The position numbers were made by a program, and so were the translations under genes. From Candidatus Vogelbacteria bacterium (GTDB lineage Bacteria > Patescibacteriota > Minisyncoccia > Phycocordibacterales > XYD1-FULL-46-19): a stretch of DNA of 32,042 nucleotides. Where the stretch lies: NCBI GenBank assembly GCA_903864935.1, contig CAIPHT010000007.1, forward strand, positions 80,293 to 112,334, in the 5' to 3' direction. Below, piece after piece: positions 3,650 to 27,021 of this stretch. The notes beneath the pieces were generated by a model that worked only from the letters and a program-made list of their open reading frames with translations, did not search any database and had not been told where the DNA came from. The stretch's first letter is position 1; the number at the start of each line of letters is the position of its first letter.

Positions 3650-6600
3650 ATGTCTGACGAAAAGCCAGAAGTCTTAAAATCTGATATTGCCAAGCGGGAG
3701 GAGGAGATCCTGAAGTTTTGGCAGGATAATAAAATTTTCGAGAAGACTTTTGAGAAGGAGTCACCTCAAGGTGAATTCGTCTTTTATGATGGGCCACCAT
3801 TTGCAACAGGCACCCCTCACTATGGTCACTTAATTGCTGGGACGATTAAGGACGTTATCCCTCGTTACAAGACGATGAAGGGTTATCACGTGCGTCGCCG
3901 TTGGGGTTGGGATTGTCATGGTCTACCAGTAGAGAACATTGTTGAGAAAGAATTGGATCTCAAGTCTAAGAAAGATATTCTTGATTATGGTATTGAGAAT
4001 TTTAATGATAAGGCGCGGGCTGTTGTCATGCGTTATGCCAATGAATGGAAGAAGGTGGTGCCACGTTTGGGTCGCTTCGTTGATATGGAGGATGATTATC
4101 GCACCATGGACGCCTCTTACTCCGAGACGACATGGTGGATCTTCAAACAACTTTTTGATAAAGGCTTAATCTATGAAGGTTATAAGTCAATGCATATTTG
4201 TCCTCGTTGTGAGACGACACTCTCGAACTTCGAGGTAACTCAAGGTTATAAAGATATTACGGACATCTCGGTCACGGTTAAATTTGAATTAGTAGGCGAG
4301 CCGGGGACTTTTGTGCTCGCCTGGACAACCACTCCTTGGACTCTGCCCGGCAACGTGGCTTTGGCTGTTAACTCGGAGATTGATTATGCTGAAGTCGAGA
4401 TTGAAGGAGACGACAATAAATATATTTTAGCTAAATCAAGAATCGAGGCAGCCTTAAAAAATAATTTTAAAATAATCAGAGAATTTAAGGGCGCCGATTT
4501 AATTGGCAAAAAGTACAAACCAGTTTTTGATTATTACGTTGACGATGCAAAATTAGAACACCGTGAGAATGGCTGGCAAATTTATGGCGCTGATTTTGTT
4601 ACAACCGAAGATGGTACCGGTGTGGTTCATATTGCGGCCTTTGGTGAGGATGACATGAATTTGATTCGCGAGAAGAATTTGCCTTTTATCCAGAATGTTG
4701 AGATGAACGGAGCTTTCAAACCGGAGGTTAAGGATTGGGCTGGTCTCAAAGTAAAACCAAAAGAGAATCCTCAATCAACAGACATTGAGGTTCTTAAGTC
4801 TCTAGCCGGGAAGGGAACACTTTTTGCCAAAGAGAAATTTACTCACTCCTATCCTCACTGTTGGCGTTGCGATACTCCACTTCTTAATTATGCCACCTCC
4901 TCTTGGTTTATTAAGGTGAGCTCTTTTCGAGATAAATTAGTTGAGGCAAATCAGAAGGTAAATTGGGTCCCGGATCATGTGCGTGATGGCCGTTTTGGCA
5001 AATGGCTCGAGGGGGCACGTGACTGGGCAATCTCGCGAACTCGTTTTTGGGGGGCGCCATTGCCCGTTTGGCGTTGTACCGACTGCGGGGCAATAAAAGT
5101 TTTTGGCTCTGTTGATGAGTTAGTTTCAGCCCTGCCTCAATCTAAAAATAAATATTGGGTAATGCGCCATGGTGAAGCCACATCTAACCTCCACGATTCT
5201 ATTAGTTCTAATCCAAGTGAAGAGAATCATTTGACCGAGAAGGGGAGAGAAGAGATTGTGGCGAGCGCTGAGAGCTTGAAGGAGAATAAAATTGATTTAA
5301 TTATTTCTTCGAATTTTATTCGAACAAGAGAGACGGCAGAGCTTGTGGCGAAGACCTTGGGACTTTTGCCAGAGCAAATTGTGATTGACGAGCGCTTGGG
5401 GGAAATTCAGCCAGGGGACTTCGCTGGGGGTTCTTGGCGTGAATATAACCTAGCCTTTGGCTCGCGCCTAAATCGACTCCATAATCATCTGCCAACCGGG
5501 GGTGAGAATTATAATGATGTTCGTCGTCGAATTATGTCGGCTATTTATGATATTAACGAGAAACACCAAGACAAGAATATCTTGGTTGTTAGTCATGGCC
5601 TGCCTTTATTTATGGCGCAAGCCAGCGTTTCTCGTTGGACGGATAAAGAGATTATTGATGCGCCTCATCGAGGCAAAGATTTTGCCAATGCCGAAGTTCG
5701 ACCTCTAAACTTTGTTCCGCTTCCTCACAACCGTAATTATGAATTAGATTTGCATCGCCCGTTTATTGATGAGGTTTCTTTCCCTTGTGCTTGTGGCCAG
5801 AGCTTCAAACGAGTGCCTGATGTCTTCGATTGTTGGTATGAGTCCGGCTCAATGCCTTATGCCGAAGATCATTATCCTTTTGGAGAAAATAGCCCGATTG
5901 ACCCAACGAAAGGGCTAGGCTTTCCAGCTGATTTTATCTCTGAAGGTCTTGATCAGACTCGTGGTTGGTTTTATAGCCTTATCGTTCTTGGGGTCGCCTT
6001 GTTTGATAAGAGCCCCTATCAGAATGTCGTGACCAATGGTCTGGTTTTGGCCGAAGATGGCCAGAAGATGTCCAAACATCTCAAGAATTATCCTGATCCA
6101 ATGGATGTTGCCAATCGCTTAGGAGCGGATGCTTTGCGCTTGTATCTAATGTCTAGCCCCGCTGTGCGTGGTGAGGACCTCCTCTTTTCTGAGAAAGGGG
6201 TGGTAGAGATTGGCCGACGCATAATCTCACGTCTACTTAACGTCTTATCTTTTTATCAGTTGTATACAGAAGAGGCGGTGGGCATCGAGGAGAGGCCTGC
6301 CCGTCCGGCAGGCGGGCCTCGGGCTCACTTGAGGACTCACCTCGGCATCAATCTTGATGAAGCTAAAAACGTTCTAGATCTTTGGATTCTCGCTCGTCTC
6401 GATGAGACAATTAAGCAAGTCACTAATTCTTTGGATCGTTATGAGATCGATCGTTCCATTCGCCCCATTGATGATTTTGTTGAAGACCTTTCTACTTGGT
6501 ATTTGCGTCGTTCACGAGATCGCTTTAAGGAAGATGGCCCCGACAAGGACATGGCCATTACGGTGACCAGTTTTGTGTTGCAAGAAATTGCTAAAGTCTT

Positions 6601-7222
6601 GGCCCCGCTCACCCCGTTTGTCTCAGAGATGATTTATCAAGAGCTTAAGACCGAACAGGACGAACTTTCTGTCCATCTTATCTCTTGGCCCAACTTCGAG
6701 CTTAAAGAAAAGGTTGCTGGTGAGAAAGAGCGCGCTATCTCTTTAATGGCTGAGACTCGACGTGTCGTATCCTTAGGGCTAGAATTTCGTCAGATACTCA
6801 AGGTTAAAGTGCGTCAGCCCTTGGCTGAGCTCAAGGTTAAGGCCGGAGTCTTGGCTGGACAGAATGATTATATTCAATTGATTGGTGATGAACTAAATGT
6901 TAAAGAAGTTACTTTTAACCAACCAATTGAAGATGAGGTTTGGCTTGATGGGGAAGTGGGGCCTGAGTTGATGGCTGAGGGCACGGTGCGTGAATTGGTG
7001 CGTCAGATTCAGGAGCGACGCAAGACTCTCGGTTTCAATCCGAACCAGAAAATCGAATTAATTATTGAAGCTGACAATTCGGGACGAGAAATTTTGCGCA
7101 AATATGAGAAGGAGTTAAAATCGGGGACAAATACCGAGAAACTCGATTATGCCATTGTCTCTGACGGGGAGGCCTTTGAGGCGAATGAAATACCTTTCAA
7201 AATAAAGATTATTAAACTTTAG
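3650..7222 (+). CDS. ileS: Isoleucyl-tRNA synthetase with inserted histidine-phosphatase domain
   Basis: Class I synthetase charging tRNA-Ile, here 1190 residues. The HIGH motif is HYGH at 57-60 and the KMSKS motif is KMSKH at 806-810. The CP1 editing domain (about 200-400) includes LAWTTTPWTLPGN and EDGTGVVHIAAFGEDD. The family line DWAISRTRFWGAPLPVWRC is followed by CTDCGAIKVFGSVDEL, which normally continues into ...LHRPFIDEV. Here about 200 residues (496-697) intervene, with VMRHGEATSN (His507), SNFIRTRETAEL, a LGEIQPGDF acidic segment and VVSHGLPLF (His649), the core of the phosphoglycerate-mutase-like histidine phosphatases. The synthetase then resumes at ELDLHRPFIDE and VFDCWYESGSMPYAE. 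A second oddity is a repeat-derived loop at residues 882-895. The C-terminal anticodon domain is intact. No frameshift is needed anywhere. Confidence 0.95.
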   Translation: MSDEKPEVLKSDIAKREEEILKFWQDNKIFEKTFEKESPQGEFVFYDGPPFATGTPHYGHLIAGTIKDVIPRYKTMKGYHVRRRWGWDCHGLPVENIVEKELDLKSKKDILDYGIENFNDKARAVVMRYANEWKKVVPRLGRFVDMEDDYRTMDASYSETTWWIFKQLFDKGLIYEGYKSMHICPRCETTLSNFEVTQGYKDITDISVTVKFELVGEPGTFVLAWTTTPWTLPGNVALAVNSEIDYAEVEIEGDDNKYILAKSRIEAALKNNFKIIREFKGADLIGKKYKPVFDYYVDDAKLEHRENGWQIYGADFVTTEDGTGVVHIAAFGEDDMNLIREKNLPFIQNVEMNGAFKPEVKDWAGLKVKPKENPQSTDIEVLKSLAGKGTLFAKEKFTHSYPHCWRCDTPLLNYATSSWFIKVSSFRDKLVEANQKVNWVPDHVRDGRFGKWLEGARDWAISRTRFWGAPLPVWRCTDCGAIKVFGSVDELVSALPQSKNKYWVMRHGEATSNLHDSISSNPSEENHLTEKGREEIVASAESLKENKIDLIISSNFIRTRETAELVAKTLGLLPEQIVIDERLGEIQPGDFAGGSWREYNLAFGSRLNRLHNHLPTGGENYNDVRRRIMSAIYDINEKHQDKNILVVSHGLPLFMAQASVSRWTDKEIIDAPHRGKDFANAEVRPLNFVPLPHNRNYELDLHRPFIDEVSFPCACGQSFKRVPDVFDCWYESGSMPYAEDHYPFGENSPIDPTKGLGFPADFISEGLDQTRGWFYSLIVLGVALFDKSPYQNVVTNGLVLAEDGQKMSKHLKNYPDPMDVANRLGADALRLYLMSSPAVRGEDLLFSEKGVVEIGRRIISRLLNVLSFYQLYTEEAVGIEERPARPAGGPRAHLRTHLGINLDEAKNVLDLWILARLDETIKQVTNSLDRYEIDRSIRPIDDFVEDLSTWYLRRSRDRFKEDGPDKDMAITVTSFVLQEIAKVLAPLTPFVSEMIYQELKTEQDELSVHLISWPNFELKEKVAGEKERAISLMAETRRVVSLGLEFRQILKVKVRQPLAELKVKAGVLAGQNDYIQLIGDELNVKEVTFNQPIEDEVWLDGEVGPELMAEGTVRELVRQIQERRKTLGFNPNQKIELIIEADNSGREILRKYEKELKSGTNTEKLDYAIVSDGEAFEANEIPFKIKIIKL
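6292..6334. repeat. Palindromic REP-like sequence translated in frame inside ileS
   Basis: GCCTGCC-cgtcc-GGCAGGC (6295-6313) is followed by CCTCGGGCTCACTTGAGG (6317-6334). The latter is the exact reverse complement of the central 18 nt of the intergenic palindrome at 23843-23860, and differs at two positions from 22829-22846. It encodes ERPARPAGGPRAHLR in a variable loop between the catalytic core and the anticodon-binding domain. Confidence 0.75.
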
Positions 7223-26346: not shown

Positions 26347-27021
26347 ATGCCTAGATTAGAAAGAATTGATGTTGGTAATAATGTCTATCACATTCTCAAT
26401 CGAGCCAATGCCCGAGCCCAAATTTTCTATAATGATAATGACTACAAACTTTTTGAAAGTATTTTAGAAGAAGCGGTTGAGAAGTTTAAGATGCGTTTGT
26501 TGGCATATTGCCTAATGCCCAATCATTGGCACCTCGTTCTCTATCCAAGGAATGATGGTGACCTAGCTCTTTTTATAAGTTGGTTGACCAACACTCACAC
26601 CCGACGCTGGCACACCGAGAAGGGAACGGTGGGTGAGGGGCATCTCTATCAAGGACGATATAAGTCTTTTCTTTGTCAGGATGATGGCCATTTCTTAACC
26701 CTTGTTCGTTATGTGGAGAGAAACGCTAAGAAAGCTAAACTAGTTTTGAAGTCCGTGGATTGGCCGTGGTCTAGCGTCTGGCGTCGAGAAAAAGGGACAG
26801 ATAAACAGAAGAAAATTTTGGCCCCTTGGCCAGTGCCTCGACCAGAAAATTATCTTCTTTGGTTAGATCAATCACAGTCTGAGGAAGAAGAGGGGACGAT
26901 AGAAATGTCTGTACTTAAGAGTAGCCCTTTTGGTTCCCTGGATTGGATGGAGGATGCTGTGAAAAAATTTAACTTAGAACAAACCCTGCGAAGAGTGGGG
27001 AGACCAAGAAAAGGGGGCTGA
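26347..27021 (+). CDS. REP-associated tyrosine transposase (Y1/HUH)
   Basis: A 224-residue single-strand DNA transposase of the IS200-related RAYT group. The HUH metal site is MPNHWHLVL with His60 and His62. The likely nucleophile is Tyr122 in VRYVERNAKKAKLV, the place of the usual YI..NP line. Other family lines are YHILNRANARAQIF near the start and GHLYQGRYKSFL. A C-terminal extension (from about 175) ends in RRVGRPRKGG, a basic AT-hook-like tail. In other bacteria RAYT proteins act on REP palindromes. This window has palindromic repeats, but the link to this enzyme is only inferred. Confidence 0.9.
   Translation: MPRLERIDVGNNVYHILNRANARAQIFYNDNDYKLFESILEEAVEKFKMRLLAYCLMPNHWHLVLYPRNDGDLALFISWLTNTHTRRWHTEKGTVGEGHLYQGRYKSFLCQDDGHFLTLVRYVERNAKKAKLVLKSVDWPWSSVWRREKGTDKQKKILAPWPVPRPENYLLWLDQSQSEEEEGTIEMSVLKSSPFGSLDWMEDAVKKFNLEQTLRRVGRPRKGG

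Follow-up and report, generated by a model that had tools for sequence, protein, structure and literature searches.

Several described systems come close to the protein analysed here. Branch-1 histidine phosphatases (HPs; PF00300), such as PhoE, CobC, PspA and GpgP, share with our domain their fold and the full catalytic set; the difference is that the latter is nested in an aminoacyl-tRNA synthetase and scores below the cut-off of every HP equivalog tested. The bifunctional RNase H/acid phosphatase PRK07238, the best-scoring HP profile for our domain, combines a CobC-like HP with an enzyme of nucleic acids, but as an end-to-end fusion. A precedent for an enzyme domain in isoleucyl-tRNA synthetase (IleRS) is the IleRS–N-acetyltransferase family NF040702, and a GNAT domain is nested in one patescibacterial IleRS (L204). 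With type-2 IleRS (TIGR00392; PDB 8c8w, 8wnd, 1ile) the host shares the class I motifs, the CP1 editing domain, the CP3 zinc ribbon, the anticodon domain and the DUF5915 C-terminus, but where the solved IleRS with residue alignments shown have a short loop, this one has an HP of 190 aa. To our knowledge, the extra domains of synthetases are mostly appended at the ends, whereas the proteins described below have whole, catalytically intact enzymes nested in catalytic or editing domains, and these differ between relatives at one slot.

The gene lies in the window (the whole stretch of DNA that was analysed, 32,042 nucleotides), and its features, in window coordinates, are as follows.

3650..7222, + strand: ileS, isoleucyl-tRNA synthetase of 1190 aa with nested HP (ORF without internal stop, profile matches, Foldseek)
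3818..3829, + strand: HYGH, the class I HIGH motif, aa 57–60 (sequence)
5075..5086, + strand: first zinc-ribbon Cys pair of CP3, C476/C479 (CTDC), upstream of the insert (sequence; 73–78% conserved)
5141..5719, + strand: nested branch-1 HP, the insert proper, aa ~498–690 (PF00300, HP-less relatives, AlphaFold)
5165..5173, + strand: RHG motif R506-H507-G508 with the nucleophilic His507 (R and H in 176/176 nested HPs and in 63/63 IleRS)
5309..5323, + strand: S554 to R558, the latter being the second catalytic Arg (both residues in 176/176)
5402..5404, + strand: E585, presumed proton donor (Glu in 172 and Asp in 4 of 176)
5594..5596, + strand: H649, second catalytic His, in VVSHGLPL (175/176)
5786..5794, + strand: second zinc-ribbon Cys pair, C713/C715 (CAC), downstream of the insert (sequence; 74% conserved)
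6065..6079, + strand: KMSKH, the class I KMSKS motif, aa 806–810 (sequence)

By its sequence the host is an IleRS, predicted to aminoacylate tRNA-Ile: it scores 862.5 bits with the ileS profile TIGR00392 (cut-off 621.4) and has the class I motifs and an anticodon domain (Anticodon_1, E 7e-29). It lacks a GNAT domain and reaches 302 bits with NF040702, the cut-off of which is 1999. The AlphaFold model of the whole protein (pLDDT 89.7, pTM 0.84) has as its best Foldseek matches IleRS2 of P. megaterium (8c8w/8c8v) and yeast IleRS (8wnd), so that the fold, as modelled, is closest to type-2 (eukaryote-like) IleRS. The initial annotation of this DNA had recognised a histidine-phosphatase domain inside IleRS, and the matches to both PF00300 and TIGR00392 within one uninterrupted ORF bear it out.

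The boundaries of the domain needed adjustment. It had been placed at aa 496–697, between segments thought to be adjacent in ordinary IleRS, and alignments to yeast and bacterial type-2 IleRS structures indeed skip aa ~492–698 outright. The two flanks (GSVDEL, starting at aa 486, and ELDLHRPFIDE, starting at aa 698) are, however, joined in ordinary IleRS by a loop of roughly 5–25 residues, which reads VIGSIEELKSHLAPGSNLPTNSEGEIDLHRPYID in the HP-less relative G015. Because HP-less relatives keep such a loop, the insert proper comprises aa ~498–690, and the PLPHNxxYELD tail is part of the IleRS loop and lies outside the inserted domain. Within the CP3 subdomain, the insert separates the two Cys pairs of the zinc ribbon; CP3 spans residues 459–526 in yeast IleRS, where the tRNA site is lined by the CP2–CP3 linker that immediately precedes it (PMC7955072). 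Independent assemblies contributed well over 100 contigs with the same insert, which excludes chance and misassembly, and an assembly artefact was therefore rejected as the source of the HP-containing IleRS.

Membership of the insert in the HP family is clear. PF00300 matches aa 503–664 of the whole protein (E 2e-31), and the isolated insert scores 114.3 bits against a gathering cut-off of 21.7. The RHG and second-His motifs noticed at the outset are present (MRHGEATSN from aa 505, VVSHGLPL from aa 646), and the full branch-1 set can be assigned as R506, H507, R558, E585 and H649, so that the acidic segment noticed with the two histidines resolves to Glu585 and the second Arg to R558. The nucleophile is present in all 176 nested HPs that were compared, from IleRS and ValRS, and the second His is lost only in the ValRS L213; relatives devoid of both histidines, which would have spoken against activity, were not encountered. 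No degenerate HP was seen in a long IleRS in this set, which was recruited by similarity and could have let a totally degraded insert escape. In an alignment of 63 IleRS, invariance within the HP is confined to the columns of R506, H507, G532, S554, R558, E585 and H649. The catalytic residues are thus better conserved than the flanking zinc cysteines (73–78%), while the mean column identity of the HP is 0.49 versus about 0.6–0.7 in the synthetase core, and the C-terminal half of the HP is poorly conserved. Pairwise dN/dS values of 0.04, 0.14 and 0.19, from pairs with unsaturated dS, indicate that the nested HP is under purifying selection. Modelled alone, the HP gives an intact and confident fold (pLDDT 94.3, pTM 0.91) and not the collapsed active site that would also have counted against function. 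Its nearest solved folds are mycobacterial hydrolases, the phosphoserine phosphatase (PSP) of H. thermophilus, GpgP, PhoE and CobC, with a Foldseek probability of 1.00 for PhoE, PSP, GpgP and CobC. The kept catalytic set and the predicted fold agree with the earlier expectation of activity, and the nested HP is very probably an active phosphomonoesterase.

Which phosphomonoester it acts on is not given by its subfamily, as none of the tested NCBIfam equivalog cut-offs for HPs was reached. The insert scored 75.6 bits with CobC alpha-ribazole phosphatase (TIGR03162, cut-off 162.9), 74 and 22.6 bits with the two dPGM models (NF038349, cut-off 225; TIGR01258, cut-off 81.7), and 80.3 bits with PRK07238 (cut-off 326), whose RNase H domain it lacks. 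A disguised glycolytic phosphoglycerate mutase was rejected, since a dPGM-like HP is encoded elsewhere in the genome and the insert falls far below the dPGM cut-offs. That separate protein (L002, G000:C4:41015-41623) is the only other HP of the genome, and its second catalytic His is apparently replaced by Ser (IIIAASGNSLRAL).

The HP-containing IleRS is widespread. A search with the insert located it within the IleRS frame of 56 of the 61 genomes of the order, including that of the window; G015, G036 and G043 have a clean IleRS of 974–980 aa without HP, and G005 and G052 were left undecided. A clean empty site was also seen in G256. The 113 genomes of the class yielded 106 IleRS frames, of which 70 have at least 1090 aa, 29 have 900–1089 aa and seven are shorter. 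Judged by frame length, about two thirds of the class (70/106) may thus have the HP, length being a fair but imperfect proxy: the 20 frames fetched included one of 1101 aa without HP and a contig-truncated one of 939 aa with it. Both states occur within one family (L253 without HP, L254/L262 with it). Outside the class, 16 of 118 IleRS frames have at least 1090 aa, and most of those fetched contain HPs (L202 and L203 do not). The named carriers include Nomura-, Zambryski-, Taylor-, Adler-, Colwell-, Yanofsky-, Nealson- and Doudnabacteria. A comparison of CPR lineages, proposed in the initial annotation, thus found the insertion to be common and its catalytic residues kept (56/61 order genomes, 176 nested HPs). 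A patescibacterial-type HP-IleRS also occurs in a metagenome-assembled genome of about 400 kb titled 'Spirochaetia bacterium' (L127, QYPD01000003.1), which is probably mislabelled.

The window IleRS is one of many class Ia synthetases with nested enzymes, as revealed by a survey of Patescibacteria in which PF00300 was run over 287 genomes of the phylum and long frames were inspected. HPs occupy four sites in IleRS, with up to three per protein. Members of family f119 mostly have two, at the site of the window protein (A) and at site B a little downstream, and the 1572-aa IleRS L102 has three, at B, at C (the loop after the MPYGSVHYPF segment) and at D (between the catalytic and anticodon domains). 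The occupant of site C differs between two genera of family f98: in L102 it is an HP, in L204 a GNAT domain (PF13673/PF00583), and L204 has an HP at D. HPs were also found in the ValRS L057, L060, L070/L206, L074, L108 (two), L211 and L213. The ValRS L206:1-3657 combines three nested enzymes: a HAD just before the TTRAET editing motif, an RBBP9-like Ser_hydrolase and an HP.

Corresponding slots exist in LeuRS, the frame of which is enlarged (at least 900 aa) in 16 of the roughly 37 relatives that gave a LeuRS match. The editing-domain slot of LeuRS and ValRS before TTRxDT is filled by an RBBP9-like hydrolase, an ASCH or a HAD domain, and a later LeuRS slot by NUDIX, NUDIX plus HAD, a hydrolase or a nucleotidyltransferase-like domain. 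A nested NUDIX with an intact Nudix box was found in L220, L221, L222, L223, L230, L232–L237, L239, L241, L243–L245, L247, L286, L291, L293, L294 and L297–L300, in at least two different slots; L220 has a HAD in addition. An ASCH domain (PF04266) is nested in the LeuRS L248, and an aminoglycoside-adenylyltransferase-like one (PF10706), the nucleotidyltransferase-like domain, in L240. The LeuRS of the window's own genome, encoded outside the window (995 aa; L219:398-3382, + strand, equal to G000:C6:43197-46181), has an RBBP9-like serine hydrolase (PF06821, GHSLG) in its CP1 editing domain immediately before KVFTTRADT, whereas that of the same-genus genome G001 lacks this hydrolase and has a different insert at the later slot. 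No nested enzyme was found in 104 MetRS frames, all of at most 614 aa. Some loops (L203, L211, L219, L290) contain apparent translated short repeats, e.g., ASGAKQSP, RQAQDDNSKRQAQDDN and DPSTGSGRAGS, and their sequences suggest that these loops are very insertion-tolerant.

The history of these insertions is only partly readable from phylogeny. A PMSF tree was computed for 81 HPs; the window's own HP, a duplicate row, was absent from it, and bootstrap convergence was incomplete. One group in this tree (95/90) unites the HPs from sites A and D of IleRS with two from ValRS, and the site-B HPs of f119, the other ValRS HPs and stand-alone HPs fall outside it. Several insertion events are indicated by the differing insertion sites, not by the tree. 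AU tests rejected neither a single origin of all ValRS HPs (p 0.15) nor the union of both HPs of f119 (p 0.17), and the number of independent captures is uncertain on these data.

We consider it somewhat better than even (probability about 0.55) that the HP is a self-contained module, that the IleRS bearing it in the CP3 loop is otherwise ordinary and serves as its carrier, and that the HP acts on a small soluble phosphate ester, the two activities being independent. IleRS, ValRS and LeuRS resemble carriers whose slots accept small enzymes that can be exchanged for one another. A small soluble phosphomonoester would phosphorylate His507 while R506, R558 and H649 bind the phosphate group and E585 donates a proton to the leaving group; water would then free the phosphate from phospho-His507. 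The IleRS would contribute abundance and essentiality as a carrier, and the loops of patescibacterial IleRS, ValRS and LeuRS would take whole small enzymes (HP, NUDIX, RBBP9-like serine hydrolase, HAD, GNAT, ASCH) that are gained, lost and exchanged. The insertion and its distribution, the empty sites, the invariant catalytic residues, the purifying selection, the predicted fold, the other slot occupants and the lack of inserts in 104 MetRS are direct results; we infer phosphatase activity, a small soluble ester substrate that is not a product of the synthetase, and the independence of the two activities. The main argument is the interchange of enzyme types at one slot, which disfavours a dedicated function in isoleucylation. 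The initial annotation had suggested that the phosphatase could be linked to aminoacylation, and a specific link is not supported: ValRS contains HPs as well, as do three further sites of IleRS; GNAT, HAD, NUDIX, alpha/beta hydrolase or ASCH domains fill the same or corresponding slots in relatives; and the HP is missing from three genomes of the order and from about a third of the class. Nevertheless, two observations weigh against the synthetase as a mere carrier. That these editing synthetases in particular have captured enzymes repeatedly could point to a common substrate connected with translation, and the fact that the HP has been kept in IleRS across the order speaks for some benefit of this specific pairing.

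The main rival, unlikely in our estimation, has the nested enzymes clearing away what class Ia synthetases generate as side or end products, with the HP coupled to aminoacylation through a locally formed substrate. HP and HAD would then act on AMP or another nucleotide monoester, NUDIX on Ap4A or related dinucleotides, and the RBBP9-like enzymes on aminoacyl esters. Such by-product clean-up stays alive because, of the synthetases looked at, the hosts are limited to IleRS, ValRS and LeuRS, with their ATP- and tRNA-dependent chemistry; each host found is a class Ia synthetase that consumes ATP and edits, and MetRS has no nested enzyme. The Nudix boxes of LeuRS are intact, CobC, a phosphatase of the nucleotide-like alpha-ribazole-5'-phosphate, is among the nearest NCBIfam neighbours of the HP, and CP3 follows the CP2–CP3 linker, by which the tRNA site of yeast IleRS is lined (PMC7955072). 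On the other hand, the ASCH, GNAT and nucleotidyltransferase-like inserts find no simple place in this scheme, and G043 and G256 manage without an HP in IleRS and, among the matches listed, without a stand-alone HP. Patescibacteria are thought to scavenge nucleotides, and dephosphorylating AMP would be wasteful in such organisms. Equally doubtful is a combined reading in which the three synthetases form a chassis with fixed slots and the cassettes jointly destroy nucleotide and aminoacyl by-products or toxic analogues where these are formed; of this reading, the chassis and its slots can be read straight from the sequences. A replacement of pyrophosphatase was also considered and rejected: the window's genome lacks PF00719, but 36 of 61 relatives have it, mostly alongside the HP, and there is no complementary pattern.

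It is improbable that the HP acts on adjacent RNA or protein, the target being a tRNA phosphorylated at its 3' end or a phosphorylated residue of the synthetase such as the KMSKS serine, which in other synthetases is targeted by HipA-type kinases. The position of CP3 beside the tRNA-binding linker would suit such a target, and HPs acting on phosphoproteins exist (SixA, UBASH3). HPs at four IleRS sites and in ValRS would, however, all need to reach one target, the nearest folds and profiles are those of small-molecule phosphatases, and the C-terminal half of the domain, where substrate contacts vary, is poorly conserved. Self-protection, in which the nested enzymes would inactivate phosphorylated or adenylate-like natural inhibitors of the host synthetase, is improbable too. 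GNAT and other enzymes inactivate microcin C-type toxins, the nested fold types (GNAT, NUDIX, HP, hydrolase, nucleotidyltransferase) resemble known drug-modifying enzymes, NCBIfam includes an IleRS with an acetyltransferase domain (NF040702), and gain and loss are patchy; yet order-wide retention under purifying selection is unlike resistance, and we know of no matching inhibitor. A structural or neutral decoration was rejected as very unlikely: the HP is dispensable and cleanly missing in relatives, but its catalytic set is invariant in 176 domains when the flanking zinc ligands are about 75% conserved, and dN/dS is well below 1.

The component families are known, and the surprising element is the pattern of exchangeable slots; in the limited, open-access literature searched we found no published account of HP-IleRS, HP-ValRS or NUDIX-LeuRS. 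This pattern makes testable the question of why the editing synthetases of minimal genomes carry phosphatases, NUDIX hydrolases and esterases. It is also a warning for annotation, as the 'missing' small enzymes of these genomes may hide within ileS, valS and leuS, and the slots represent natural insertion points for the engineering of class I synthetases. HPs with other partners in the phylum were noticed by eye: a 2-hydroxyacid/phosphoglycerate-dehydrogenase-like protein is fused to a PGM-like HP in L104 and L105, and a DedA/VTT-like membrane protein is fused to an HP in L110. Elsewhere in the window, the ORF at 26347-27021 (+ strand) resembles, also by eye only, a REP-associated (Y1) transposase.
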